Below, piece after piece: positions 12,693-31,019 of a stretch of DNA of 64,000 nt (the stretch's first letter is position 1; the number at the start of each line of letters is the position of its first letter). The stretch spans positions 1 through 64,000 of the forward strand of contig CAJXXT010000002.1 in NCBI GenBank assembly GCA_913063495.1, given 5' to 3'. The DNA comes from an uncultured Gammaproteobacteria bacterium. GTDB taxonomy: Bacteria; Pseudomonadota; Gammaproteobacteria; Pseudomonadales; Ketobacteraceae. The position numbers and the translations under genes were made by a program. The notes below the pieces were generated by a model. The model searched no databases. It worked only from the letters and a program-made list of their open reading frames with translations, and was not told the DNA's origin.

Positions 12693-13820
12693 ATGCGAAA
12701 AGCAACCTTAGAAAAGTGTGATCAGCTACGATTTACTATTGAACGATCGGATGATGTCGATAGTATGCGATCACTATGGGTATCATTGGAGTTTAAGGCA
12801 AGCCCAACTTTTTTTATATCTTGGTACTGGATTTCATCTTGGCTTCGTATAATCGGGCCAGATGTTTTTGTATGCAAGGTATATTCCCATGAGTGCTTGG
12901 TTGCACTTGGTCTTTTCGTGAATACATCTTCAACAAGGCATAAAATTCTTAATGTTGAACAGCTAAGGCTGCAAAGTGTCGGCGATGAAAGTAAGGATCA
13001 GATTTGGCCTGAGTACAATAATATGCTCATAGCCAAAGGGTTTGAGAAAGAGGTGTATGAAGGTTTAATTCATTTCCTGTCTCAAAACACCGAAATATCT
13101 TGGGATGAACTTCTGATAGGCCCGATAGACAAAAAGGTTTTAACATTAATTACATCTGACCCTTGTCAGTCAGTAGAGCGATGGAGGGCACCAAGTTATG
13201 GTGTTGATCTTGCCAGCATCAGGCTTGGTGGGCAATGTTATTTGGATTCATTATCTAAAAATACCCGTTACCAAATAAGACGCGCTATTCGTAAATATGG
13301 CAAAGACCTGTCTTTAAACGTAGCCCAAAGTAAATCGCAGGCGCTGTCGTACTTTGAGAAAATTGCCCCTTTACACCTTCGGCGCTGGGAAGCCAGTAGT
13401 GGTTTTAATAACCAGTATTTCACCCGGTTCCATCAAGATTTGATAGAAAGGTGTTTTGATGAGGGGGTTATTGAACTTGTTGAGCTTAATGTAGATGGGG
13501 AGGGTATCGGGTATTTGTATAACTTTGTCTATAATAATAAGGTCTATTTTTATCTAAGTGGCATTAATCTTGACTCAGACGTTAGGCAGAAACCTGGGTT
13601 GGTTTTGCATGCTCTTTGCATTCAATATCATTTGGAACAAGGAGCTGAACTGTATGATTTCCTGGGTGGTGATGCCCGCTACAAGCAAAGCCTAGGAAAG
13701 CAGACAGGTGAGTTATTCGTAGTGTCTTTTCAGAAATCAGTAGTTAAATTACGTATTGAGCAGTTCGCTAGAGGCTTAAAGCATTACATTGAACGTAACA
13801 CGTTAGGTAATGATGTATGA
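12693..13820 (+). CDS. GNAT/FemAB-like acyltransferase
   Basis: A 375-aa soluble protein. Its second half matches the BioF2/FemAB-like GNAT pattern: LSKNTRYQIRRAIRKY near residue 190, LHLRRWEASSGF near 225, GYLYNFVYNNKVYFYLSG near 270 and YDFLGGDARYKQSL near 320. Family members transfer acyl or aminoacyl groups. In XrtA loci FemAB-like proteins are usual and may attach an amino acid or acyl group to the polymer or its precursor. It overlaps xrtA by four bases (ATGA), so the two are coupled. A second, distinct FemAB-type gene lies at 47385-48698. Confidence 0.82.
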   Translation: MRKATLEKCDQLRFTIERSDDVDSMRSLWVSLEFKASPTFFISWYWISSWLRIIGPDVFVCKVYSHECLVALGLFVNTSSTRHKILNVEQLRLQSVGDESKDQIWPEYNNMLIAKGFEKEVYEGLIHFLSQNTEISWDELLIGPIDKKVLTLITSDPCQSVERWRAPSYGVDLASIRLGGQCYLDSLSKNTRYQIRRAIRKYGKDLSLNVAQSKSQALSYFEKIAPLHLRRWEASSGFNNQYFTRFHQDLIERCFDEGVIELVELNVDGEGIGYLYNFVYNNKVYFYLSGINLDSDVRQKPGLVLHALCIQYHLEQGAELYDFLGGDARYKQSLGKQTGELFVVSFQKSVVKLRIEQFARGLKHYIERNTLGNDV

Positions 13821-15316
13821 ATGACGCTTTGAAAAAAAATACCCTTGTTACACTAAAGATGCCTATGGCATTGTGTGTTGCGTGGGTAGTTGTGTGGGGT
13901 GTGGCTTTCAGGGAAACCTTAGGTTCAGCATATTCAGTATGGATGAACTCTAATACCTATACGCATTGTATATTTGTGATACCAGTAGCTCTTTATTTCA
14001 TTTACCAAAATAGGGGGGAGATATTATCTTTACCGCCGCGACCTTTATACATCATGCTAGTACCGATGCTTCTACTTCAGGGTTTATGGCTACTGGGCTA
14101 TGCTGCTGATATAGAACTATTTAAGCACGCTGCTGTATTCGGAATGCTATCGTCCTTTATTATACTGTTTTTTGGTTGGCGCATAGCTAGGGTGATCTGG
14201 TTTTCACTTGTTTTTATCGTTTTTGCCATTCCTGTGGGTGAAGAGCTTGTACCTAGTTTTCAACTAATTACAGCTGATCTTACTGTATTTTTTTTGCAAA
14301 TGTCCGGAGTAGCCGTTTTTCGTGATGGATTGTTTATCAGTATTCCGGCGGGAATGTTTGAGGTCGCTGAAGCCTGTTCTGGTATCCGTTTCTTTGTTGC
14401 TTGTGTAGTTATGGGGGCTCTGATTGCTTACACTAGCTACACTACGGTTTGGAAGCGCATACTTTTTTTTGCTTTTTCAATGGTTTTACCAATTGTTGCC
14501 AATGGATTAAGGGCGTACGGTACGATATTAGTAGCTCACTTAGTCGATATTAAGTATGCATCAGGAGCAGATCACCTGGTTTATGGGTGGGTTTTTTTTG
14601 CATTGGTAGTCTTGATCTTAGTTGCATTCTCTCGCTTGGGCTCAGAACTTTCACAAACATATTCAGGTGATGGTTCGGTTCACCCTGAATGGCTTACCGT
14701 CAGTTGGTATCCCTCTTTAGTTATCGCGTTATTACCGTTATTTGGTTCACTGTTTATTGCCAATAACGCTGAAAAAAGTGCATCATACTTATCTTTAGAT
14801 ACGCGCAGTCAGCCTGGTAATAGTGTATATATCTCAACATATATTGATTGGATCCCTACTTTTAGCGGCCCCAAATTCGAGCATTTGGGTGTTTCAGCTG
14901 AAGGTATTGAATATTATATTGCAGGATATGATTCAAATGAGCCTGGAGCAGAGTTAATATCCGAAAAAAATCGATTATTTGATATCGGGAAATGGCGCTA
15001 TAATGGCAGCCAGTCCCTTGTTGTCGAAACTAATAAAGCGGAACCCTACCAAGTTACTCTTCTCGAGATTGGAGAGAGTGCAGGGGGGAAACGGCTGGTG
15101 TTGTACTGGTATTATTTACCTAATGTATCTACTAGCAACAGTCTTTACATAAAACTTTTCCAGGCATTCAATGTGTTGTTGGGAGAAGGTGCTGTAGGTG
15201 CTGTTATTGCTTTGTCTGTGCCAATCGATACTGATATGCAAGCTGCAAAAAACAAGTTACTTTCTTTTGCTGAATTGAACGCCGAACAGTTAGAGTCGCT
15301 AGTTCTTTTTAATTAA
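13817..15316 (+). CDS. xrtA: Exosortase A fused to EpsI domain (XrtA-EpsI)
   Basis: A 499-aa inner-membrane transpeptidase-like protein that sorts PEP-CTERM proteins. Eight or so helices fill residues 15-275 and carry the exosortase triad: Cys187 in AEACSGIRFF, Arg232 in NGLRAYGT and His253 in GADHLVYGW. A last helix near 305 leads to a periplasmic EpsI (DUF3485) domain (about 320-499). In XrtA systems the two are often fused, as here. The likely substrate in this window is the PEP-CTERM protein at 51285-52046. The ATGA overlap with the upstream gene implies co-translation. Confidence 0.95.
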   Translation: MNDALKKNTLVTLKMPMALCVAWVVVWGVAFRETLGSAYSVWMNSNTYTHCIFVIPVALYFIYQNRGEILSLPPRPLYIMLVPMLLLQGLWLLGYAADIELFKHAAVFGMLSSFIILFFGWRIARVIWFSLVFIVFAIPVGEELVPSFQLITADLTVFFLQMSGVAVFRDGLFISIPAGMFEVAEACSGIRFFVACVVMGALIAYTSYTTVWKRILFFAFSMVLPIVANGLRAYGTILVAHLVDIKYASGADHLVYGWVFFALVVLILVAFSRLGSELSQTYSGDGSVHPEWLTVSWYPSLVIALLPLFGSLFIANNAEKSASYLSLDTRSQPGNSVYISTYIDWIPTFSGPKFEHLGVSAEGIEYYIAGYDSNEPGAELISEKNRLFDIGKWRYNGSQSLVVETNKAEPYQVTLLEIGESAGGKRLVLYWYYLPNVSTSNSLYIKLFQAFNVLLGEGAVGAVIALSVPIDTDMQAAKNKLLSFAELNAEQLESLVLFN

Positions 15317-15353: not shown

Positions 15354-16193
15354 ATGAAAAATGCAATGACGATAGATGTAGAAGACTATTTTCAAGTCTC
15401 TGCATTTGAAAATTTGGTTAACCGTGAAAGCTGGGATGCGATTAGCCCAAGAGTTGAGAAGAATACCCATATACTTCTGGATAAATTTGCGGAGCATGAC
15501 ACCAAGGCTACCTTCTTTACTCTTGGTTGGGTAGCCGATAAATTCCCCCAGTTAGTTCGCGAAATTGTTAGTCAAGGCCATGAGCTTGCAAGTCATGGCA
15601 CCCATCATCAAAGAGCCTCTGACCAAGACAGGCAAACATTTAAATCCGACGTTGGTGATGCAAAAAGGCTTTTGGAAGATATCTCTGGTGTTGAGGTTGT
15701 AGGTTATAGAGCCCCAAGCTTTTCTTTTACCAAACAAAATGAGTGGGTATATGACGTGCTTGCGGAAGAGGGGTACAAGTATAGCTCAAGCGTTTACCCT
15801 GTTGCTCATGATCATTACGGAATACCGGATGCACCGCGTTTTAAATACAGTACACCCTCAGGGGTTGTAGAAATTCCTTTGAGTACTTTGCCTCTATTCG
15901 GAAAAAACATACCAATATCTGGTGGCGGGTATTTTCGACTTTATCCATACATTGTGACTCGCTGGGCAATTTCAAAATTTACAATATCTGAGAAGCAGCC
16001 TTATATATTTTATTTGCATCCTTGGGAGATGGATCCTTCGCAGCCCAGGATGACAGAGGCTTCATTAAAAAGTCGGTTTAGGCACTACCTTAACCTAAAT
16101 AAAGTTGATAAAAGGTTGACCGGGCTATTGCAGGATTTTGAATGGTCTTCTATGGCGGATATTTATGGTTTTAACAATGAATTGAGTGATTAA
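15354..16193 (+). CDS. XrtA-system polysaccharide deacetylase (DUF3473)
   Basis: A 279-aa NodB-fold deacetylase. Motif 1 reads MTIDVEDYFQ (residues 4-13), motif 2 is GHELASHGTHHQRAS (near 76-90) with the metal-binding histidines, and YRAPSFSFT follows near 122. The tail contains the DUF3473 region (FYLHPWEMDPSQPR near 222). This is the form found in nearly every XrtA exopolysaccharide locus and probably removes acetyl groups from the polymer or lipid-linked unit. There is no signal peptide. It starts 37 bp after xrtA. Confidence 0.93.
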   Translation: MKNAMTIDVEDYFQVSAFENLVNRESWDAISPRVEKNTHILLDKFAEHDTKATFFTLGWVADKFPQLVREIVSQGHELASHGTHHQRASDQDRQTFKSDVGDAKRLLEDISGVEVVGYRAPSFSFTKQNEWVYDVLAEEGYKYSSSVYPVAHDHYGIPDAPRFKYSTPSGVVEIPLSTLPLFGKNIPISGGGYFRLYPYIVTRWAISKFTISEKQPYIFYLHPWEMDPSQPRMTEASLKSRFRHYLNLNKVDKRLTGLLQDFEWSSMADIYGFNNELSD

Positions 16194-19742: not shown

Positions 19743-19781
19743 TATATTGTCAACGAGAGGCGAGTGACGTAACGAACTGTG

Positions 19782-20786
19782 ATGATATCCAAACGAATAA
19801 TTGCTAAAATAGATAGCCACAAACAGTTGTTGTCGAATGGTCTTCTTCACCTAATTCTTACGTTATGTTCAAATAGAATTGCAGGTAATAATCGCTTAAA
19901 TATTATTGTTTATCATAGAGTGCTTCCTGAACTGGATCCTTTACAACCCGACTACATTACAGTTGACCAGTTTCAACGTGAAATTCAATGGCTTTCTAAG
20001 CATTGTAACGTGCTATCTCTGTCTCAATCGGTGACTTTGTTAAAAACTAATAGCCTTCCTCCTAGAGCAGTAGCGATTACATTTGATGATGGCTATGCGG
20101 ATAATTATATTGATGCGCTACCAATATTGAATTTTTTGAATGTACCTGCGACCTTTTTTGTTACTACGGGTTATCTTGGTCAATATTCTATGTGGGATTT
20201 GTTTGTTGAAAGTGTGCGCAAAACAACATTAAAGGAGATTGTTATTAACCGAAAGGTTTACGTCCTGAAAACTATTAAGGACAAGCTTCGCTTCCTAAAA
20301 GATGCAACTACCTATCTAAAGGAGATTGAATACGACCTTTCTGCGATACAGTTAGCGGAGATGATAGGACAGCTTGGGGAAGCAGATATTAGTGATCTTA
20401 TGATGGATGAAGGTATGTTAAAGTCTCTTTCAAATACGGAAAGAGTTGAAATTGGTGCGCATGGCGTCGACCATAAAATATTAACTCGAGTATCTACGGT
20501 AGCAGCAACGGCAGAAGTTTTTGAAAGTAAAAAAACTTTGGAGAAAATATTATTTCGAACGATTTCTGGGCAAGCTTACCCTAATGGTTTTTACCCTGAT
20601 GATTTTGACGATTCGCATGTAAAGCTGGTAAGAGACGCAGGTTATGAATATGCGGTGAGTACCAATTTAGGAAGTGTTGGATTTGGAGACGATCTGTTTC
20701 GTATGAAACGGATCGGGCCATGGCGAAGAGATAAGGTTGGCTTTCTTCTTGGCTTGGCTGTTAACTATTGGCGGGGAGGTAGTTAA
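19782..20786 (+). CDS. Polysaccharide deacetylase family protein
   Basis: A 334-aa NodB-fold enzyme distinct from the DUF3473 deacetylase at 15354. It shows VYHRVLPELDP near residue 45, the catalytic and metal motif ITFDDGYADNY (about 96-106), ATFFVTTGYLG, and a second metal motif EIGAHGVDHKILT near 228. A long insert lies between the motifs. There is no signal peptide. ATG 19782 directly follows an in-frame GTG at 19779. The stop overlaps the next start (TAATG). It may deacetylate a precursor or the polymer; the substrate is unknown. Confidence 0.88.
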   Translation: MISKRIIAKIDSHKQLLSNGLLHLILTLCSNRIAGNNRLNIIVYHRVLPELDPLQPDYITVDQFQREIQWLSKHCNVLSLSQSVTLLKTNSLPPRAVAITFDDGYADNYIDALPILNFLNVPATFFVTTGYLGQYSMWDLFVESVRKTTLKEIVINRKVYVLKTIKDKLRFLKDATTYLKEIEYDLSAIQLAEMIGQLGEADISDLMMDEGMLKSLSNTERVEIGAHGVDHKILTRVSTVAATAEVFESKKTLEKILFRTISGQAYPNGFYPDDFDDSHVKLVRDAGYEYAVSTNLGSVGFGDDLFRMKRIGPWRRDKVGFLLGLAVNYWRGGS

Positions 20787-22129
20787 TGTCCTTAACAGCA
20801 CTAGGTTTTGTCCTATTATTCTTTTTTGGAATCATAAAAGCGTTGATGGGGCGACCGATTTTCGGGCTTTACTCATACATCTTGTCAATATACATGTATG
20901 CTCCCGGCAGCTGGTGGGGCGCAGGCTTGCCTGACCTTCGTTGGTCCCTTTTTTCTGCATTGGCCACTTTGATCTCAATATGGATGGCAGGCAATAAAGC
21001 GAATGCACTTACTTTTACAAATGGTGGGTGGGCAAACGATGGAATCGTTAAATTTTTGATTTGTTTTGTGTTATGGGTTTGGTTACAAAATCTATGGGCT
21101 ATAGCTCCCGTGAGACATTTTGAATTTTCCGTTATGGTAACAAAATTTTTGTTGTTAATATATTTGATAAAAAAATCTGTTCATAGTGAGAGGGATCTTT
21201 ATAGTATACTAATAGCTCATTTGCTAGGGGGTATGTATTTTGGTTATCTTGGATTAACGCAGCATACAGGAGGAAGGTTTGAAAGTGCCCCAACCCCAGG
21301 GATGAGCGATGGAAATTTGCTGTCTATTCATATGCTCTCTATTTTGATAGCTGGAAGTTACCTTGTTCTCTGTAACTTCGACAAAAGGAAGTTTCTTCTC
21401 GGCTTACCAATAGTTTTAACACTTAATGCGATTTTTCTTACTGAAAGTAGAGGGGCGTTAGTTGGTATCGTGTTATCAGCTTTGCTGGCAATGTTTTTCG
21501 TACCAGCACACCTGAAAAAAGTGTTCCGAAGGTATATGGTGCTAGCTGTTTTGGGGGTTAGCTTAATGGTAGGGCAAAATCTTGTTGATCGGATTAATAG
21601 TATTTCTGAACCAAATGCTCAAGGTGAGGTTGATAAAAGCGCCGCTTCCAGAGTCGTTTTTATTGAGGCTCAAACTGAGATGTTTAAGGAAAAACCGTAT
21701 ATTGGTCAGGGTCATAAGGGCACTATGTATTTGAGCCCTGATTTTATTCCAATTGAATTTATGACGAATTCAGGAGGAGGAACTATGCTCAGGGCTTCAC
21801 ATAACTTAACTATGAGCTATCTAATTGATCATGGTGTGATAGGTTCGTTATTGTATTTTGGGTCAGTTTCGATTGCGTTCTTGCGTTTGATTAGACTGAG
21901 ATCGAATATAATTCACGTCAGGTCAAACTTGAATTTGGTTTATGTTGGGTGTTGTGTAGCCCTTTTTTCTATTCTTGTTACAAGTCAATTTTCAAATAGC
22001 ATACGCCTAGAAATTGCTATATGGTTTCTCGCATTACTTAGCTTAATTTATGAACGTATTAAGTTTGTAGAAATGCAAGCTACAAAGTTGAAAGAAGAGA
22101 GTGCCCAAGAGCCCAGCCAACTAAACTAA
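20786..22129 (+). CDS. O-antigen ligase/polymerase-like protein of the XrtA system (Wzy-like)
   Basis: A 447-aa membrane protein with about ten to eleven hydrophobic helices and a larger periplasmic loop (about residues 270-350) typical of Wzy/WaaL-like proteins. Notable segments are the TESRGALVGIVLSA motif near 218 and the conserved GQGHKG and RASHNLTMSYLIDHG segments in the loop. It resembles the exosortase A-associated O-antigen-ligase-like family (TIGR03097-type). It is the only polymerase candidate in the window and so the likely exopolysaccharide polymerase, although the named family was suggested to be an O-glycosylation ligase. Start and stop are tightly spaced with its neighbours. 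Confidence 0.87.
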   Translation: MSLTALGFVLLFFFGIIKALMGRPIFGLYSYILSIYMYAPGSWWGAGLPDLRWSLFSALATLISIWMAGNKANALTFTNGGWANDGIVKFLICFVLWVWLQNLWAIAPVRHFEFSVMVTKFLLLIYLIKKSVHSERDLYSILIAHLLGGMYFGYLGLTQHTGGRFESAPTPGMSDGNLLSIHMLSILIAGSYLVLCNFDKRKFLLGLPIVLTLNAIFLTESRGALVGIVLSALLAMFFVPAHLKKVFRRYMVLAVLGVSLMVGQNLVDRINSISEPNAQGEVDKSAASRVVFIEAQTEMFKEKPYIGQGHKGTMYLSPDFIPIEFMTNSGGGTMLRASHNLTMSYLIDHGVIGSLLYFGSVSIAFLRLIRLRSNIIHVRSNLNLVYVGCCVALFSILVTSQFSNSIRLEIAIWFLALLSLIYERIKFVEMQATKLKEESAQEPSQLN

Positions 22130-22168: not shown

Positions 22169-23419
22169 ATGAATAAGGTGTTAATGGTTGCTCTTGATTT
22201 TCCTCCATGCCAAAGCGCGGGGGTTCAACGAACGCTACATTTTAAATCGTACATTGAACAAAATGGTTGGCACCCATTGGTTTTGACGTCTAAGCCATTT
22301 ATATACGATAAAGTAAATGTAGATCAGCTTACGCAACAGGAATACTTTAATGCTGATATTTATCGTGCCTTTGGGCTTAATGCCTTTAAACATCTATCAT
22401 TTAAAGGGAAACACTTTGAATTTACGACGTTCCCAGATAAGTATGCAACCTGGTTTTGGGACGCTGTTAGGGTGGGTCGGAAGGTAATTCGTCAACGGAA
22501 ACCTGATATCATTTGGAGTACGTTTCCATGCTCAACATCTGTGCGTATTGGGCTAAGCCTAAAGAAAACAAGTGGATTGCCATGGGTAGCTGATTTCAGG
22601 GATCCTTTTTCAGGAACAAATCCCTATGTGAGAGCAAAGAACCCATTAGGTAAGATCATTGATGAGGAAGGCGTTAAACATGCTGATGCACTGATTTTTA
22701 CTACGAAAAATGCCGCTGACGTATACCTAAATGAATATGCCTTTATAGATAAAGAAAAAGTACATATTATTCCAAACGGGTTTAGCGAAAAAGCATTTGA
22801 TCAGTTGGGAGTGCTGAGTACTAAAAAGGTAAATGTAGAGGATAAAGATGTAGTTACGGTACTACACAGTGGCTTTCTTTACCCTGGCGGGCGTGATATA
22901 GGCACCTTAGTTGATGCGTTGATTGAACTGAAAATTGAGGCGCCAGAACTGTTCCGTAATTATCGGTTTGTTTTTAGAGGAAGCGTAATCCCAGAAGGCA
23001 TCCAGCAAACCTTAGCTAACTCCGACATGGAAGATAAAGTCATTTTTTTGCCAACAATATCTTTTAATGAATCACTGAGAGAAATGTTTGAGGCGGATGT
23101 GTTGTTAGTTTTGCAAGGTGAAATGTTTAACAACCAAATTCCTGGCAAGGTGTATGAGTATATAAGAGCTAAAAGGTTGATATTGGCGTTAACTCATCAT
23201 AAAGGAGCAACGGCCGAATTATTAAGTGCGGTGCCCCATGCATGTACGGCAGATATGGAAATTAAAGTTGAAATTAAAAAAGCCCTTGAAACTCTTTCAA
23301 CTCAAGAGGTATCAACTGACTTTGATCCATCTCCATATAATCGAGATGTCGGTGCGAAAATATTGGATGACGTCCTTAATAAGGTATTGAGGCAATTTAC
23401 TAACGGAAAGGTAAGCTAA
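22169..23419 (+). CDS. Glycosyltransferase family 4
   Basis: A 416-aa GT-B enzyme. The N-terminus reads VLMVALDFPPCQSAGVQRTL with a glycine-poor acceptor loop, and PDIIWSTFPCSTSVRIGLSL follows near residue 112. The donor domain carries IIPNGFSEKAFD, VLHSGFLYPGGRD and PGKVYEYIRAKRLILALT (near 330). It probably extends the lipid-linked repeat. It starts 39 bp after the polymerase gene and ends four bases before the first asparagine synthase gene. Confidence 0.9.
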   Translation: MNKVLMVALDFPPCQSAGVQRTLHFKSYIEQNGWHPLVLTSKPFIYDKVNVDQLTQQEYFNADIYRAFGLNAFKHLSFKGKHFEFTTFPDKYATWFWDAVRVGRKVIRQRKPDIIWSTFPCSTSVRIGLSLKKTSGLPWVADFRDPFSGTNPYVRAKNPLGKIIDEEGVKHADALIFTTKNAADVYLNEYAFIDKEKVHIIPNGFSEKAFDQLGVLSTKKVNVEDKDVVTVLHSGFLYPGGRDIGTLVDALIELKIEAPELFRNYRFVFRGSVIPEGIQQTLANSDMEDKVIFLPTISFNESLREMFEADVLLVLQGEMFNNQIPGKVYEYIRAKRLILALTHHKGATAELLSAVPHACTADMEIKVEIKKALETLSTQEVSTDFDPSPYNRDVGAKILDDVLNKVLRQFTNGKVS

Positions 23420-23423
23420 GACG

Positions 23424-25343
23424 ATGTGTGGAATATCTGGAGCGATTTCACCCGGATTTTGGGTCGGGAAATCGCACGCAGAAAATATTACCAAACGCAT
23501 GTCCGATGCTATTGCACATCGAGGGCCAGACGGCTCAGGGTGTTTTGTGGATATGGTTAACGGTGTGACTCTGGGTCATAGAAGGTTAGCGATCATCGAT
23601 GCTGAACATGGTCATCAACCAATGATTCACAGTGATACCGGTGTGGTGTTGGTTTTTAACGGTGAAATATACAATTTTAAAGACCTGAAAGCTGAGCTCC
23701 TTTCGTTAGGGCACCGTTTTATAACCGAATCAGACACAGAGGTTTTACTATTAAGTTATATCCAGTGGGGGGATAAGTGTTTTGAACGGCTGCTTGGAAT
23801 GTTTTCCTGTGCCATTTGGGACCCTAAAAATAGCAAATTAGTTTGCGCTAGAGATCGGATTGGAATCAAGCCGTTTTATTTTTTCTATGATGGCGTGAAT
23901 TTCATCTTTGCTTCGGAAATTAAAAGCATCAGTTGTCACCCTGCGTATAAGAAAGATATAAATTCCGAAGGAGTTTTCGACTACACCAGGTATGGTTATA
24001 TACCGGGTGAACATACCGTTTATAAGGACACCTACAAATTAACTCCAGGCTCAGTTTTAACAGTAGCTCTTAAAGGTGCGGGCTCTTTAGCGGTGTCTAA
24101 AGATCGCTATTGGATATTAACATGTAATAATTCAGAGGTTATTGAGCGGCCTGAAGACTCAGTAAAAATCAAAGATAAGCTGGGGTCATTATTAGAGACG
24201 GCAGTTTCATCACACATGGTAAGTGATGTCGGCGTTGGAGCGCTTCTTAGTGGGGGAGTCGATTCTACGTTGGTGGTTGATCTCATGGCTAGAACAACCA
24301 CCGCAGTCTCTGTGCACAATGTACAATTTGGACAACAAGAATTCGATGAATCAACTCATGCAGCTCAGGTGTCTAACCAGTTAGGTGTGAGTTACACTCA
24401 GGACAACGTCCCTTCTGATATGTGCAATGATATAGAAAAGATCATTTGCCATTTTGACGAGCCTTTTGCTGATGCGTCGTCAATCGCCATGTATTACTTG
24501 AGCAAAAGTGCTAGTGAGCGTTATAAAGTGTGCCTTTCTGGTGACGGTGGCGATGAGCTTTTTGCAGGTTATAATTGGTATGCAGAGTTACTTCGATTTG
24601 AGGCTATGGATGCGAAGTATCCACGCTGGATTCGTTCTGCAGTATCTATGGCCAGTCGTCAGATATTGAGCCCGTCCAGAAGAGGCAGTCTTTTGGCATC
24701 TAACCTTGGGGCAAGCCCATCAACAAGGCACGAAGCCTTGGTGTCAGTTTTTCAGCGTAGCTGGGCAGAAAAATTATTATCAGATGAGGTGCTGTTCAGC
24801 TTAAAGGGCCCTGATTCCGCTCTACCTGCTCCTAATCAAATTAGTGGTAGGCACCTTGAAAGCCCGTTTGGCGATGACTTGATAACAAATGCTCAATATG
24901 CAGACCTAACATCCTATTTAGTTGATGATGTGTTGGTAAAAGTAGACCGAATGAGTATGGCTCATGGCTTAGAAGTAAGGGTACCCTTGTTAGATCATCG
25001 TGTAGTAGAATCTGCGTTTTCCATACCAGTAGGTATGAAAATCAATTCAACCCAACGAAAAATCCTATTAAAAGACCTTCTTAAAGATAAGTATGGTTTG
25101 GATTTTGTGAATAGACCAAAACAGGGATTCTCAGTTCCATTGGCTGAGTGGTTAAGAAAGGATCTGTTTCCTCTGGTGGATCGCTATTTATTAATAAGTG
25201 GTTTGACCACTCGAAGTGGTTTTTTTAAGACGAGTGAAGTTAAAAAGTTATGGTTTGAGTTTACGTCGGGTCGAGGGCGAATTGATTTGTCCAATAATAT
25301 ATGGCTGTTGGTTTGTTTTGAAGTTTGGCATAACAATTTGTGA
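23424..25343 (+). CDS. asnB: XrtA-system amidotransferase (asparagine synthase, glutamine-hydrolysing type)
   Basis: A 639-aa class II amidotransferase. The glutaminase domain begins MCGISGAI with catalytic Cys2 and keeps HRGPDGSG, HRRLAIID and FNGEIYNF. The synthetase domain has the ATP pyrophosphatase loop LLSGGVDST (about residues 270-278) and LSGDGGDELFAGY (about 372-384). It matches the exosortase A system-associated amidotransferase family (TIGR03108-type). In polysaccharide loci such enzymes probably amidate a uronic acid or other carboxyl group. Sequential genes for UDP-glucuronate and UDP-ManNAcA in the window supply acidic sugars, which fits. Confidence 0.93.
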   Translation: MCGISGAISPGFWVGKSHAENITKRMSDAIAHRGPDGSGCFVDMVNGVTLGHRRLAIIDAEHGHQPMIHSDTGVVLVFNGEIYNFKDLKAELLSLGHRFITESDTEVLLLSYIQWGDKCFERLLGMFSCAIWDPKNSKLVCARDRIGIKPFYFFYDGVNFIFASEIKSISCHPAYKKDINSEGVFDYTRYGYIPGEHTVYKDTYKLTPGSVLTVALKGAGSLAVSKDRYWILTCNNSEVIERPEDSVKIKDKLGSLLETAVSSHMVSDVGVGALLSGGVDSTLVVDLMARTTTAVSVHNVQFGQQEFDESTHAAQVSNQLGVSYTQDNVPSDMCNDIEKIICHFDEPFADASSIAMYYLSKSASERYKVCLSGDGGDELFAGYNWYAELLRFEAMDAKYPRWIRSAVSMASRQILSPSRRGSLLASNLGASPSTRHEALVSVFQRSWAEKLLSDEVLFSLKGPDSALPAPNQISGRHLESPFGDDLITNAQYADLTSYLVDDVLVKVDRMSMAHGLEVRVPLLDHRVVESAFSIPVGMKINSTQRKILLKDLLKDKYGLDFVNRPKQGFSVPLAEWLRKDLFPLVDRYLLISGLTTRSGFFKTSEVKKLWFEFTSGRGRIDLSNNIWLLVCFEVWHNNL

Positions 25344-25389: not shown

Positions 25390-27336
25390 GTGTGTGGAAT
25401 AGCAGGAGTTGTGGGGCCTAGTGCCACATACGTGGACGAGACAATTGTCCAGACAATGATTGATACTTTTGGTTATCGAGGCCCAAATGATGATGGGACA
25501 TGGGTATCATCAAGTGATTATGTTGCTCTCGCCCACAAACGTTTGAGTATTATTGATACAAGCCACGCAGGGCACCAACCCATGCATAGTTATACAGTGA
25601 GTGGTGAAAGTGGTGAAAGTGGAGTAGGTGGTGAAGTCGATTGTACGATTGTTTTTAATGGTGAAATCTACAATTACATCGAAATACGGGATGAGCTGAA
25701 ATTACAGGGAGTTATTTTTGACACTGAGTCGGATACAGAAGTCATCCTCAAGTCCTATCGTTTCTACGGAAAATCCTGTTTAGATAAATTTAATGGTATG
25801 TTTGCTTTCGCAATCTGGGATGCTTCTGCAAAAGAACTTTTTATTGCTAGGGATAGGTTAGGAATTAAACCTTTCTATTATCATGTGTCTGATGAGGGGG
25901 GGTTTATATTTGCTTCTGAAGTAAAAGGGATTCTTGCTGTTCTTGATAAGCCTTGGCAAACAAAGATGAGTTTGGTCGATCAGTATATGAGCTTCGGTTA
26001 TGTGCCTGGTGAAGAAACGTTACACGTGGGTATAAAGCGATTGCTTCCGGGGCATTGTGCGACCTTGCGTGAAGGTGTGTTGGATATTGGCGAATATTGG
26101 GCTCTTAACTTTAGTGATAATCCTGAAGATAAGGGGTTGGATTACTACGCGGCAGAAACTTCAAGGCTGTTAAAAAGCGCAATAGATCTACGCCTAAGAA
26201 GCGATGTTCCACTAGGTATCTTCCTGAGTGGGGGTATTGATTCTAGTGCCGTTGTTGCATTGCTTAGCGAGAAGACGGAGTCTCAATTAAATACATTTTC
26301 GGTGGGTTATGATTTTGGGGCTCAATTTGACGAGTCGCAGTTTGCCAGACAAGTTTCTGCGGAGTTTAATACCAATCACCATGAAATTAAGGTCGACCCA
26401 AAAGAGTTTAAATCCTTTATTGATCGGTATATTAGATTGATGGATGAACCTGTCACAGAGGCAGCGGCAATATCATTACATTATGTTTCACAACTGGCTA
26501 AAGAGAATGTAACTGTAGTGCTTTCTGGTGAGGGCTCTGATGAGATATTTGGAGGGTACGACTTTTATCAATATATGAGTGTTATAGAAAAAATTCGATC
26601 CATATTTGGAGTGACGATGTCTGGCGTGTTGGGGCGCTTAGGAGGAGCTGTCGATAAGTTTCTCCCCAAAATTGCTAAGTACCTGATGCTTACCAGCCAA
26701 ACCTTCGAACAAAGATACAGAGGTATATCATCCTACGGAGAGGCCTATAAAAAGCATCTTTACAAAGCTGATGTGAAAAAATCCTTGCTATTGATGAAGT
26801 CATCGAAGGTACAAACGTTTATTGATAGCTTGTTTGATAAAACCCGAGGTCTCGATTTACTTTCTCGAATGCTATATTTTGATACAAAAACATGGCTTGT
26901 CGATGACTTGTTAATAAAAGCTGACAGGATGAGTATGGCCTCGTCGTTGGAATTACGAGTGCCATTTTTGGACTATCGGCTGGTGGAGTTTGCAGCCACG
27001 ATTCCATCAAAGTACAAAATCAACAATGGTACTAGTAAATTTATATTGAAACATATAATGAAGGACTTGCTCCCAGATTCCATTATCAATCGTAAGAAAA
27101 TGGGGTTCCCAACACCATTGAAATTGATGTTTCAAAATGAACTATCGGGATATGTCGTAGATGTTTTGCTCGCAGATGATGCCTGTATTCATCAGATATT
27201 GTCTGTTGATGCCATAAAGAAATTAATTGACGATCATTATCAAGATAAGGTGGATAACCATCGCGTACTTTGGCAGTTAATAGTGTTGGAATGTTGGCTA
27301 AAAAAGAACAAAGTAGAGATATTAATTAATGAATAA
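25390..27336 (+). CDS. asnB: Second asparagine synthase (glutamine-hydrolysing) type amidotransferase
   Basis: A 648-aa homologue of the preceding gene with GTG as start, so that Cys2 (MCGIAGVVG) is exposed. It has YRGPNDDG, HKRLSIID, FNGEIYNY, the PP-loop LSGGIDSS (near residue 280) and LSGEGSDEIFGGYDF (near 380). An insert near residues 75-85 has a small tandem repeat (GESGESGVGGE) that its sister lacks. Two diverged amidotransferases in one operon suggest amidation of two different carboxyl groups. It overlaps the next glycosyltransferase gene by eight bases. Confidence 0.92.
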   Translation: MCGIAGVVGPSATYVDETIVQTMIDTFGYRGPNDDGTWVSSSDYVALAHKRLSIIDTSHAGHQPMHSYTVSGESGESGVGGEVDCTIVFNGEIYNYIEIRDELKLQGVIFDTESDTEVILKSYRFYGKSCLDKFNGMFAFAIWDASAKELFIARDRLGIKPFYYHVSDEGGFIFASEVKGILAVLDKPWQTKMSLVDQYMSFGYVPGEETLHVGIKRLLPGHCATLREGVLDIGEYWALNFSDNPEDKGLDYYAAETSRLLKSAIDLRLRSDVPLGIFLSGGIDSSAVVALLSEKTESQLNTFSVGYDFGAQFDESQFARQVSAEFNTNHHEIKVDPKEFKSFIDRYIRLMDEPVTEAAAISLHYVSQLAKENVTVVLSGEGSDEIFGGYDFYQYMSVIEKIRSIFGVTMSGVLGRLGGAVDKFLPKIAKYLMLTSQTFEQRYRGISSYGEAYKKHLYKADVKKSLLLMKSSKVQTFIDSLFDKTRGLDLLSRMLYFDTKTWLVDDLLIKADRMSMASSLELRVPFLDYRLVEFAATIPSKYKINNGTSKFILKHIMKDLLPDSIINRKKMGFPTPLKLMFQNELSGYVVDVLLADDACIHQILSVDAIKKLIDDHYQDKVDNHRVLWQLIVLECWLKKNKVEILINE

Positions 27337-28543
27337 TGGTGAAAACCCTAATGTACTCGTACTTAGCTATCTATATCCTAATTCAGAATTCCCTAATCAC
27401 GGGATTTTTGTGCACAATAGGGTTAAAGCCGTTTCGAAGAAAGTCAATGTCACGGTAATAAACCCCATCCCATGGTCACCTTTATATCGTTTCTTTGGAC
27501 ACTACAAGCGATATGCGTTGATACCAAAGGAAGAAGTTATTGATGGGGTTAAGGTTTACCATCCGCGTTTCTTGTCGATACCTAAGTTCTTTAAGTTCTT
27601 TGAAGTGAACAGATATAAAAAGGCGGTGGATTCGATCGTCAGCACTAAATTATCAGAGAATGTTATTGATATTGTTGATTTGCACTGGACCTTTCCCGAT
27701 TTGCCGACCGGAGTTCACTTAAAGCAACGTTTAGGAGCAAAGCTGATAACGACGATTAGAGGCAATGAAGCTTTACACTTGGGAGAAGATAATTATAGCG
27801 AAAAGTGTGTCGCTGAGTACTTGGGGCATACGGATGGGTTAGTTGGGGTTAGTAAAGATTTAGAAACGTTGGCATCAGCCCATGCAAAGAGCGCATTTGT
27901 TTCTACGGCAATTAGAAATGGTGTTGATACTGATAGATTTACATATATAGATCAAAACGCAAGTCGTTCCAAACTTGGCCTAGCTAAAGATAAAAAGATT
28001 ATATTTTCAGTCGGATCTATTATTCACCGAAAAGGATTCGATCTAACTATTCGAGCGCTTAATGATATAAAGCAAAATCAGGGGCTAGATGGGCTTAAGT
28101 TTTATATCGGTGGCTCTGTTGGACACGAGGGTGATTATACTCAGGAGCTAATGGCACTAATTGCTAAGTATAGTCTAGAAGAAACGGTTATATTCCCTGG
28201 TCAAATAAGTAACTCTGATTTACCTCTTTGGTATAATGCTGCTGACATTTTTGTTTTGTCCAGTCGTGGTGAGGGGAGCCCCAATGTGTTAACTGAGGCA
28301 TTGGCATGCGGTACTCCGTCAGTTGTTACTGATGTTGGGGCATCGAAGGAGGTTCTTGATTCCGAAAAGGGGCAAGGTATTTGTGTTCCCCCTGATGACT
28401 ATGAGGCAATTAGGGACGGTATTCTTATGTTGCTTAAGGGGGGGGCAAACAGAAAGTTGCTTTCCGATAACTTTTCAAAATACACCTGGGATTGGTGTGC
28501 AGAAAAGGTTATTGACGTTTATGAACAAGTTCTAGGTCGTTAA
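27329..28543 (+). CDS. Glycosyltransferase family 4
   Basis: A 404-aa GT-B enzyme. The acceptor domain opens VLVLSYLYPNSEFPNHGIFV. The donor domain shows IRNGVDTDRFT, FSVGSIIHRKGFDL, FYIGGSVGHEG, FPGQISNSDLPLWYNAADIF and the nucleotide-sugar signature SSRGEGSPNVLTEALACGTP (about residues 310-329). Its reading frame overlaps the end of the amidotransferase gene and runs to two bases before the next start, so it is part of the same transcript. Donor and acceptor are unknown. Confidence 0.92.
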   Translation: MNNGENPNVLVLSYLYPNSEFPNHGIFVHNRVKAVSKKVNVTVINPIPWSPLYRFFGHYKRYALIPKEEVIDGVKVYHPRFLSIPKFFKFFEVNRYKKAVDSIVSTKLSENVIDIVDLHWTFPDLPTGVHLKQRLGAKLITTIRGNEALHLGEDNYSEKCVAEYLGHTDGLVGVSKDLETLASAHAKSAFVSTAIRNGVDTDRFTYIDQNASRSKLGLAKDKKIIFSVGSIIHRKGFDLTIRALNDIKQNQGLDGLKFYIGGSVGHEGDYTQELMALIAKYSLEETVIFPGQISNSDLPLWYNAADIFVLSSRGEGSPNVLTEALACGTPSVVTDVGASKEVLDSEKGQGICVPPDDYEAIRDGILMLLKGGANRKLLSDNFSKYTWDWCAEKVIDVYEQVLGR

Positions 28544-28545
28544 AG

Positions 28546-29316
28546 GTGGATAAGGGCTTTTCTCTTCGAACTGTAGCTTATGTAATAAAACGAAAGCTAA
28601 GTTATTGGAAACAGGTGGTATCTCTATGTTTCCCGAGTCAAAGGGCTGCCTTGAAGGGTATATACCAAGAGTTAGATCATCTTATTGATCCCGACGTTTC
28701 TGATTTTAGAAACACAACAACTGTCCGAAACTGGGTTAATGAAAATAGTGTGCACCTTATTGATGATGAACATGATAGTTATGCATTTGATTTGGCTAAA
28801 GTTGTAGTTAAAGTTTGGCAGTATTTTTTAACTAAAGACTCGAAACCTCACTTATCTTGTGGTCCTAGAGCGTATTTGTTGAAGCAGCTGTTAGATCATT
28901 TGGGTTTTGCAACCAGGATTATTGATATATTAGAGATTGTTAAGGGAGAGCCACGGTCTCATACGTTATTAGAATATTATGATACGTCATGTAATAAATG
29001 GGTGATGCAGGATCCTGATTTTAACGTTAGCTATGTCAATACCGCAACAGGAGCACCTTTAGGTGCAGCGGAAGCTTTAGTATGTGAGAAAAGTCTTATT
29101 ACAGGCGATGCTTCTGGTTATACGGTAGAGAATAGAGTAAACCTGGATGGTACAATAGAAGACTATTTTTGGGTTGTGGTAGTTTATCGATATTGTTATG
29201 AGGGAGGTAAAGCAGACATATTGTTTTCGGACGGATGTGCAGAGTACGGGTTCGTAAACGGCATGGCTATTGAGAGTTTTCGATCCTATCTTTTAGATAA
29301 GTATTCTTTTAGTTAA
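28546..29316 (+). CDS. Transglutaminase-like (Cys-His-Asp) protein, last gene of the core polysaccharide operon
   Basis: A 256-aa soluble protein with no signal peptide. The middle third has the transglutaminase-like order of catalytic residues: Cys105 in LSCGPRAYLLKQLLDHLGF, His139 in SHTLLEYY and Asp156 in VMQDPDFN. The spacing and strand pattern fit the papain/transglutaminase-like fold. The reaction could be an acyl transfer or amide cleavage rather than protein cross-linking. GTG 28546 starts two bases after the upstream stop, so it belongs to the operon. The exact family is not recognised. Confidence 0.72.
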   Translation: MDKGFSLRTVAYVIKRKLSYWKQVVSLCFPSQRAALKGIYQELDHLIDPDVSDFRNTTTVRNWVNENSVHLIDDEHDSYAFDLAKVVVKVWQYFLTKDSKPHLSCGPRAYLLKQLLDHLGFATRIIDILEIVKGEPRSHTLLEYYDTSCNKWVMQDPDFNVSYVNTATGAPLGAAEALVCEKSLITGDASGYTVENRVNLDGTIEDYFWVVVVYRYCYEGGKADILFSDGCAEYGFVNGMAIESFRSYLLDKYSFS

Positions 29317-29324
29317 TGACAATA

Positions 29325-29354
29325 CTTGAGGTGGTCTAATTAGACCACCTCAAG
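29325..29354. terminator. Perfect 30-bp palindrome at the end of the core operon
   Basis: A fully self-complementary 30-base stretch (arms CTTGAGGTGGTCTA and its reverse complement around AT) begins eight bases after the stop at 29316. It would form a 14-bp stem. There is no T-run on either side, so intrinsic termination is uncertain; a Rho-dependent or processing hairpin, or a protein site, is also possible. Confidence 0.55.
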
Positions 29355-29870: not shown

Positions 29871-31019
29871 ATGTCACACGTTAAAGTTAAAAAATCTATA
29901 GTTTCGATATTGGCAGTTATATTGCTGTTTGTAGGGGTTGGAGCATCTAATGCTGATTCACTAACGTTTGGTGACTTTGAAACGTCGATTCCCGTAATAA
30001 ACCCAGCTGGGGATACGGATAGCACGAGTAAGCTTTGGAGTCAATATTCTGGCGGTGATTTTACAGGAACTTATTCGGAGACTGGTGATGTAGCAATATC
30101 TACCGAAAAAAGCAACCTTTTAGAGCATAGCGCCAAGGTCGGTGTAGATGACGGTGGAGCATACTTTCAGTTTTATCCTTACAAAGGTTATGAGTGGCAC
30201 TACCTTCGGGAAATTATTAAAGAGGACATGAATGTTGGTGAATGGAAGCTAAATACTTTCAATCGAATGGAGTTTTTCGTATATGTGCCGTCTGGGTTGA
30301 CACCAAGTGGTCCTGGACAATTCAATATGGCGGTTGGAACTTACGTGCGATCTACCACTGGTGATAGAGCAAGTGCGGAGGCTGGAGGAAATCACTACTA
30401 TCACCGTTACAACCTTCCTGCATCTGAAGGGTGGCATAAAGTTGTGGTCGATATGCATCCAACTCATGAAAGAGGTGAGAATGGTGGAAAAGAGCATGGC
30501 TTACAGGAGCACCCTACTGGAGAAGATGCATATAACTATTTTGATACACTAACCAGATTTTATGTGGATTTTGAGGGTAGCCATGTGCCCAGCGGCAGCT
30601 CCGCATGGTTTTTTGACGGCTTTCGGGTATACAATGAAACCGCTCTTGAAAATGTTCAGCAGGTCTACAGTTTACATGGCTCCTATACCGCTGGTGAAAC
30701 CCCGCGTTTAATTGTTGGTTGGAATCGCAATAAAGATGAGAATAGTGTGAGCCACGAAGTGCGTTATTCTTTTGAGGATATTCATAATGTTGGCTGGGAT
30801 AACGCTACAGTTGCACCAGGCACGCCACTTAGTCCGCAGGGCTGGCAGGGTTATAATGGCATGCTGTATGAGACTTCGGCTATCAACGCTGCAGGAAATG
30901 ACGTTATTTATGTGGCCATTAAGCCGGAGAATTCTAGTTTATTTCGTCAAATTTCTATCCCAGTGGGTCAGGGGTCGTTGCTTAACCCTCCAAAACAAAC
31001 AACGCTTTTTTTTAAGTGA
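29871..31019 (+). CDS. Secreted protein of unknown function
   Basis: A 382-aa exported protein with a signal peptide (VSILAVILLFVGVGASNA, cleavage before DSLTF) and no lipobox, membrane anchor or PEP-CTERM tail. The body is rich in Gly, aromatic and beta-strand-like segments (FNRMEFFVYVPSGL; GWHKVVVDMHPTHERG; SSAWFFDGFRVYNE), which suggests a jelly-roll, carbohydrate-binding-like fold. That is inference from composition only. GAAGG precedes the ATG. It follows the IS66 remnant and precedes another unknown gene and a flippase, so a role at the surface polymer is plausible. Confidence 0.7.
   Translation: MSHVKVKKSIVSILAVILLFVGVGASNADSLTFGDFETSIPVINPAGDTDSTSKLWSQYSGGDFTGTYSETGDVAISTEKSNLLEHSAKVGVDDGGAYFQFYPYKGYEWHYLREIIKEDMNVGEWKLNTFNRMEFFVYVPSGLTPSGPGQFNMAVGTYVRSTTGDRASAEAGGNHYYHRYNLPASEGWHKVVVDMHPTHERGENGGKEHGLQEHPTGEDAYNYFDTLTRFYVDFEGSHVPSGSSAWFFDGFRVYNETALENVQQVYSLHGSYTAGETPRLIVGWNRNKDENSVSHEVRYSFEDIHNVGWDNATVAPGTPLSPQGWQGYNGMLYETSAINAAGNDVIYVAIKPENSSLFRQISIPVGQGSLLNPPKQTTLFFK

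Follow-up and report, generated by a model that had tools for sequence, protein, structure and literature searches.

What would a protein with the catalytic residues of a transglutaminase do in an XrtA polysaccharide operon? The question is raised by a gene at positions 28546-29316 of the window, by which we mean the whole 64,000-nucleotide stretch of DNA from an uncultured gammaproteobacterium that was analyzed. The gene, the codons of its presumptive catalytic residues and a repeat behind it are located as follows.

28546-29316, forward strand: gene for the predicted transglutaminase-fold protein, 256 amino acids, GTG start, no hydrophobic N-terminal segment
28858-28860, forward strand: codon of Cys-105, the predicted nucleophile, in HLSCGPRA at the start of model helix 105-118; invariant in 6/6 family members and aligned to the transglutaminase Cys
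28960-28962, forward strand: codon of His-139, in SHTLLEY on model strand 135-146
29011-29013, forward strand: codon of Asp-156, in KWVMQDPDFN on model strand 151-156
29325-29354, no strand assigned: perfect 13-bp inverted repeat with a 4-base loop, immediately behind the gene's stop; the forward strand lacks a T run

A GT4 glycosyltransferase gene (27329-28543) ends 2 nucleotides before 28546-29316 begins. The same gene order is kept in two other members of the genus (genomes G674 and G640) with gaps of 3 and 2 nucleotides, bearing out the first-pass annotation, which had described the reading frame as coupled to the glycosyltransferase gene. The orthologous proteins are 63% and 53% identical to the window protein. 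Pairwise differences between genus members amount to 0.23-0.34 per nonsynonymous site as against 0.75-0.79 per synonymous site, the latter being near saturation. Because nonsynonymous differences are far below synonymous ones, the reading frame is judged to be under purifying selection and, on this sequence comparison, 28546-29316 is a real gene. The further claim that it is the last gene of its operon holds in the window, where 554 bases without an ORF of at least 80 amino acids follow and the next ORF begins at 29871, but does not carry over to the relatives: the next same-strand gene begins 232 bases past the transglutaminase-like gene in G674, and a Wzy-like gene lies 71 bases past it in G640. 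The product of this G640 gene (L016:7033-8367) is 40% identical to the Wzy-like protein of the window, and its position behind the transglutaminase-like gene therefore indicates that the polymerase gene was replaced or moved and that the asnB-GT4-transglutaminase block remained in place. G674 has a third, divergent asnB-like gene (L014:1907-3604, 565 amino acids, Asn_synthase domain only) next to a Wzx-like gene, downstream of its transglutaminase-like copy.

The XrtA operon upstream of and including the gene spans 6976-29316. The members that bear on the argument are these.

12693-13820, forward strand: GNAT-type acyltransferase (PF13480; no NCBIfam match)
13817-15316, forward strand: exosortase A (XrtA) with an EpsI domain (TIGR03109, 303.7 bits, cut-off 208; TIGR02914 above cut-off)
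15354-16193, forward strand: XrtA-system polysaccharide deacetylase, Deac (TIGR03006, 419 bits, cut-off 276.2)
19779-20786, forward strand: second polysaccharide deacetylase, Deac2 (PF01522, 1.8e-20)
20786-22129, forward strand: polymerase of the Wzy/O-antigen-ligase-like type (PF04932, 3.5e-18)
22169-23419, forward strand: GT4-like glycosyltransferase (PF13439, 2.2e-09)
23424-25343, forward strand: asnB1, glutamine amidotransferase with an MCGI start (PF00733, 2e-83; TIGR03108, 524.7 bits; TIGR01536 above cut-off)
25390-27336, forward strand: asnB2, glutamine amidotransferase with an MCGI start (PF00733, 9.1e-99; TIGR03108, 531.0 bits; TIGR01536 above cut-off)
27329-28543, forward strand: GT4 glycosyltransferase (PF00534, 2.9e-35), with an orthologue directly upstream of the gene in 3/3 carrier genomes of the genus

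Models of the XrtA system matched above their cut-offs for XrtA itself, the initiating transferase, export, chain length and the deacetylase (TIGR03109, TIGR03013, TIGR03027, TIGR03007 and TIGR03006, respectively), and the tyrosine autokinase and outer-membrane protein models (TIGR03018 and TIGR03016) gave matches below theirs. By these profile matches, the locus is an XrtA/PEP-CTERM polysaccharide locus. The two amidotransferases reported for it are likewise present: both asnB proteins match the Asn_synthase and GATase profiles and begin Met-Cys-Gly. Their best family is TIGR03108, yet both fall under its cut-off of 816.9. The PF13480 protein, which we take to be FemAB-like by classification, has no TIGR03019 match. 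No uronate-forming dehydrogenase was found among the ORFs that were profile-scanned, 28 of the 50 window ORFs of at least 150 amino acids. The operon also encodes a type I phosphodiesterase-like protein (PF01663, 18282-19673), with no BLAST match among the G674 and G640 ORFs of at least 120 amino acids.

The window protein has no match in Pfam, NCBIfam or the PDB sequences. Six proteins of its family were compared, with identities down to 22%: those of the window, G674 and G640, two copies from a distant gammaproteobacterium (G983) and one from a Micavibrio genome. Family profiles found no credible match among PDB sequences; the single match, to a fluorescent sensor at E 1.1, was taken as chance, as were Retrotrans_gag and PB1-F2 matches of family members. 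PF01841, the core transglutaminase family, does not match the window protein at E ≤10 (gathering cut-off 23 bits) and matches two of the six members weakly, at E 0.0074 (17 bits) and 0.15, both below the gathering score.

Cys-105, His-139 and Asp-156, named in advance by the first-pass annotation as a triad in transglutaminase order, are invariant in all six members. The alignment has 25 invariant columns, and by a simple count the chance that three pre-named positions of 256 would all fall in them is about 8e-4. When a family profile was aligned with 30 PF01841 proteins from relatives, 98 columns were paired with the Cys, His and Asp in register. The six-row profile scored 29.4, a value reached by none of 300 column shuffles (maximum 25.8); the reversed alignment scored 17.8. 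The three genus members scored 21.1 by themselves and the three distant members 33.2. Because the genus-only score was reached by 3/300 six-row shuffles, it is the distant members that carry the profile evidence. Against the PF01841 proteins, hhalign gave all six members a probability of 23% and the three distant ones 52%; the transglutaminase assignment is based instead on the shuffles, the register of the triad residues and the fold.

An AlphaFold2 model built from the six sequences had a pLDDT of 75.5 and a pTM of 0.76, with pLDDT below 50 at residues 1-4, 73-79, 191-203 and 217-220. An earlier model from three close sequences (pLDDT 48.7) was too poor for fold search. With VIA-align, the model matched transglutaminases 3 and 2 and factor XIII best (Z 10-11.3, rmsd about 4.0 over about 177 residues), at 11-16% identity in the alignments with transglutaminases. 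The next matches were LapG (Z 9.3), PNGase (Z 8.8-9.0), the amide synthase GdmF, CPR-C4 and arylamine N-acetyltransferase. The best 50 matches listed are presumably all transglutaminase- or papain-like by classification, and families missing from these 50 may match as well. Foldseek gave a weaker result, with three matches at E ≤0.001: a microtubule (flagellar) doublet entry came first (2.4e-4), followed by two chains of the putative cysteine protease 3isr (8.8e-4), and pseudomurein endoisopeptidases are among the matches listed. Foldseek TM-scores by query were 0.18-0.43 among the 50 matches listed, and the structural match therefore covers the core rather than the whole protein.

A transglutaminase fold with the matching catalytic residues is thus predicted for the product of 28546-29316. 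Neither of the outcomes that the first-pass annotation had named as refuting its proposal was observed: the predicted fold is not unrelated to the papain/transglutaminase group, and the triad is not poorly conserved among the relatives found. The protein resembles the PF01841 core family (TG2, TG3 and factor XIII) in its predicted fold, in its Cys-His-Asp order and in a W...D context after the His strand. Unlike that family, it is much smaller and lacks a PF01841 match, and its activity is a putative one.

The family is rare in the genomes sampled, as far as sequence searches reach. When 390 genomes of the order were searched with the single protein, three matches were credible (six rows at E ≤0.01; three at E ~0.005 in same-order genomes were dropped, two of them having internal stop codons). 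In the phylum sample 1/398 genomes matched, namely that of the window itself. Credible matches were found in 3/15 genomes of the taxonomic family, or 4/15 when any row at E ≤10 is counted; three rows of that search at E 0.17-0.83 were dropped. A three-row profile matched 2/369 genomes of the class sample, and a six-row profile 1/398 of the phylum sample and 3/341 in the order; the phylum, class, order and taxonomic-family samples overlap. Scanning genome_contigs with a five-row alignment, within the peptide patterns used, recovered four loci, the Gammaproteobacterium and Micavibrio MAGs among them. No further relatives were found in viral contigs, in plasmids, in genome_contigs with the single protein or in three other genomes of the order of G983.

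The first-pass annotation had proposed a survey for co-occurrence with asnB-type genes. All three carrier loci of the genus (window, G674 and G640) have Deac2, asnB1, asnB2 and the GT4 gene. They were compared with six XrtA loci that lack the gene, all from within the taxonomic family (G527, G658, G621, G584, G566 and G451; one locus per genome), drawn from 12 further exosortase matches in eight genomes, with 9.8-18 kb downstream of XrtA covered. None of the six has Deac2 (E ≤1e-8) or two asnB genes; four have one asnB gene and two have none, the counts for G658 being minima because its contig ends there. Deac2 was therefore matched in 3/9 of the compared XrtA loci, which are exactly the carriers of the transglutaminase-like gene. 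The three carriers are sister species with one inheritance, so that this strict co-occurrence counts about once, and it may be due to chance. PF01841 matches and exosortase matches never shared a contig in the genomes compared (all apart from G566 and G602), except in the one-contig genome G451, where they are about 200 kb apart.

The one independent case of co-occurrence is G983, where two tandem copies, 32-33% identical to the window protein over 127 amino acids, lie in a polysaccharide locus. This locus has two intact asnB genes (in L013, with an MCGL start, and at L085:11872, with an MCGF start) and a PF01522 deacetylase that is closer to Deac2 (27% identity, E 2e-15) than to Deac (21% over 70 residues). 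It also has FnlA- and WecB-like genes, a phosphonate module and two nucleotide-sugar dehydrogenases, which could be a source of uronic acids. The Micavibrio copy lies between coaX-like and fabF-like genes, named from their translations; in the 13 kb read there its neighbors are housekeeping genes, and neither the asnB pair nor the deacetylase nor any polysaccharide gene was noticed. A polysaccharide locus is therefore present in one distant context out of two; the survey was positive for G983 and for the three non-independent loci of the genus but negative for Micavibrio. The gene, its predicted fold, its triad, its operon position and its occurrence together with two asnB genes and an additional deacetylase are the supported parts of the account.

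Several other features of the G983 locus were observed. Directly before an intact asnB gene, L085:10002-11864 encodes an asnB-like protein without the N-terminal Met-Cys, which may be a pseudo-amidotransferase. The phosphonate module (contig C79, L085:2259-5930) adjoins nonulosonic-acid-type genes and comprises a PEP mutase, a cytidylyltransferase-like protein whose tail looks by eye like an aminotransferase, and a TPP enzyme similar to phosphonopyruvate decarboxylase. The module hints at a substituent of the aminoethylphosphonate type, which is itself a primary amine. At a distance of about 22 kb from the transglutaminase-like pair, L086:14018-14806 encodes a secreted protein that has a motif of the zinc-protease type and whose C-terminal tail by eye resembles a PEP-CTERM/VPxPA-type sorting signal. 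No exosortase was noticed by eye in the translations of the G983 stretches read.

The genus members and the distant relatives differ in their predicted location. Within the first 60 residues, the highest Kyte-Doolittle mean over a 19-residue segment is 0.44 for the window protein and 1.7-2.2 for the three distant relatives, in agreement with the first-pass annotation, which had reported no signal peptide; none of the three genus members has a hydrophobic N-terminal stretch, as judged from hydropathy. The N-termini of the G983 pair and the Micavibrio protein, read from sequence, resemble a membrane anchor and a signal peptide. These three proteins share four cysteines (CX5C and CX6C) that are absent from the genus members. 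The distant relatives thus look extracytoplasmic, and the genus clade, lacking the hydrophobic N-terminus and the four cysteines, is probably cytoplasmic, the window protein included. On the simplest reading this is an extracytoplasmic family with one cytoplasmic clade, or vice versa. A substrate that occurs on either face of the membrane would fit, for example a glycan that is polymerized or linked to a lipid.

We propose that the protein would be a cytoplasmic cysteine acyltransferase of the transglutaminase fold that tailors the repeat unit of the XrtA-operon polysaccharide before export. Cys-105, activated by His-139 and Asp-156, would attack an acyl donor, most likely a uronic-acid carboxamide formed by asnB1 or asnB2. 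With ammonia released, the thioester would pass to a primary amine, giving a substituted amide; the acceptor could be an amino acid, a small amine or an amino sugar that a deacetylase has uncovered. The reaction of transglutaminases couples a carboxamide with an amine, and transamidation on the repeat unit is our best guess because the operon is expected to make both. In 2007 work by Fortin, a transglutaminase homologue reportedly served as a condensation catalyst in biosynthesis. Transglutaminase-fold enzymes are known to act mostly on proteins, peptides or carrier-bound acyl groups. AdmF of andrimid biosynthesis acts on carrier-bound aminoacyl thioesters; unlike in that system, no carrier protein was noticed in the window.

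Acyl transfer on a glycan in general, tailoring the repeat unit, is a tentative reading to which we give somewhat less than an even chance. Its specific form, with asnB-made uronamides as donors and a deacetylated amino sugar or amino acid as the amine acceptor, is improbable as it stands. In that form the protein would be a glycan transamidase producing substituted amides or amide cross-links in the polysaccharide, possibly in the sugar that accepts PEP-CTERM proteins. We infer the cytoplasmic site (from sequence), the glycan substrate, the preference for acyl transfer over hydrolysis and the identities of donor and acceptor. The first-pass annotation had suggested a step that forms or cleaves an amide on the sugar carboxyls, or an acyl transfer; its interpretation is supported in part, and the chemistry is a conjecture. 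As regards the donor, WbpS and the homologous WbqG, which are asnB-type enzymes of this sort, make sugar uronamides (PMC7468200).

A hydrolase of the same fold (a deamidase, an amidase or a PNGase-like enzyme) could instead cleave an amide carried by the glycan or by a sugar bound to a nucleotide or lipid, trimming or reversing the products of the asnB enzymes. The triad and the gene context fit such an enzyme equally well, and PNGase (Z 8.8-9.0) and the pseudomurein endoisopeptidases are among the structural matches. We consider it unlikely, on the argument that to make and then remove the same amide within one operon would be wasteful unless regulated.

Similarly unlikely is a cytoplasmic cysteine protease or transamidase directed at a protein, which would regulate polymer synthesis as HvyA does in switching off a capsule or as LapG does in releasing an adhesin. 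LapG, a periplasmic protein, is among the structural matches (Z 9.3). PF06035, which we take to be the accession of the BTLCP family, matched 0/6 members at E ≤10 with the HMMER filters on. The likeness to Caulobacter HvyA, a BTLCP protein, is that of a transglutaminase-like protein in a surface-polysaccharide locus: a capsule export locus encodes HvyA, and its Cys, His and Asp are required for its effect (PMC4241560). Unlike the window protein, HvyA is described there as periplasmic, cell-cycle-regulated and a negative factor (PMC4241560), whereas the genus clade lacks a signal peptide by hydropathy and a PF06035 match; the part of that report consulted names no protein target of HvyA.

The gene might also be a passenger, its product having the transglutaminase fold but an unrelated job of no relevance to the polymer. 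It is rare, and in the two orthologous loci its product is less conserved (63/53% identity) than asnB2 (79/74%) and GT4 (76/66%), with Deac2 at 54/54%; the Micavibrio relative has no polysaccharide context. We hold this, too, to be improbable, since position and coupling are kept in 3/3 carriers of the genus and an independent polysaccharide locus, that of G983, has two copies. A lasso-peptide-like pair, in which a transglutaminase-like leader peptidase and an asnB isopeptide cyclase would act on a small peptide, is very improbable: lasso leader peptidases have a transglutaminase-like fold and the asnB proteins match the lasso cyclase model (285.7 and 221.3 bits, far under the cut-off of 525), but both score far higher against TIGR03108 and TIGR01536, PF13471 matched 0/6 members at E ≤10 and nothing in the genome of the window (G000) at E ≤0.01, and the surrounding operon is a dense array of sugar-polymer genes.

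Acyl transfer on the glycan, the reading that we prefer, can be set beside a known gene set. In Porphyromonas, an asnB-type amidotransferase (WbpS), a CE4-type deacetylase (VimE) and an N-acyltransferase/FemAB-like protein (VimA) act on a linking sugar; VimE and VimA are proposed to complete the sugar that is amide-bonded to sorted proteins, and the authors point out similar gene sets in PEP-CTERM loci (PMC7468200). The window operon has a comparable set in its asnB pair, two deacetylases, PF13480 protein and XrtA. The likeness has limits: the product of 12693 lacks a TIGR03019 match, the asnB pair is under the TIGR03108 cut-off, and the available part of the Wbp/Vim account names no transglutaminase-like protein (PMC7468200).

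In the open-access literature searched, no paper pairing a transglutaminase with an exosortase was found, and transglutaminase and PEP-CTERM were co-mentioned only through a reference list. The words "transglutaminase" and "amidotransferase" are absent from the main text of the 2006 PEP-CTERM paper. Transglutaminase-like genes of B. cenocepacia are grouped with nitrogen metabolism (PMC5491218). HvyA is the nearest, and the sole relevant, precedent picked out in the open-access literature. The suggestion that the gene would be a new use of this fold in exosortase loci therefore stands to the extent that no open-access report was found, but a transglutaminase-like protein in a capsule locus was already known from HvyA (PMC4241560).

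The polymer-tailoring interpretation is plausible, and the gene is a candidate for tailoring a sugar polymer. Leaving the proposal aside, this is a rare, unassigned family with a well-supported predicted fold, in a setting for which no prior report was found in the open-access literature searched. If it is true, action on glycan carboxamides would be an added route to amide-substituted sugars, and one family would work on both sides of the inner membrane. The molecule to which exosortases attach proteins is called unidentified in one account, whose authors suggest a sugar modified with an amino acid, by analogy with the type IX system (PMC7468200). A glycan role for this protein would bear on what molecule exosortases attach PEP-CTERM proteins to.
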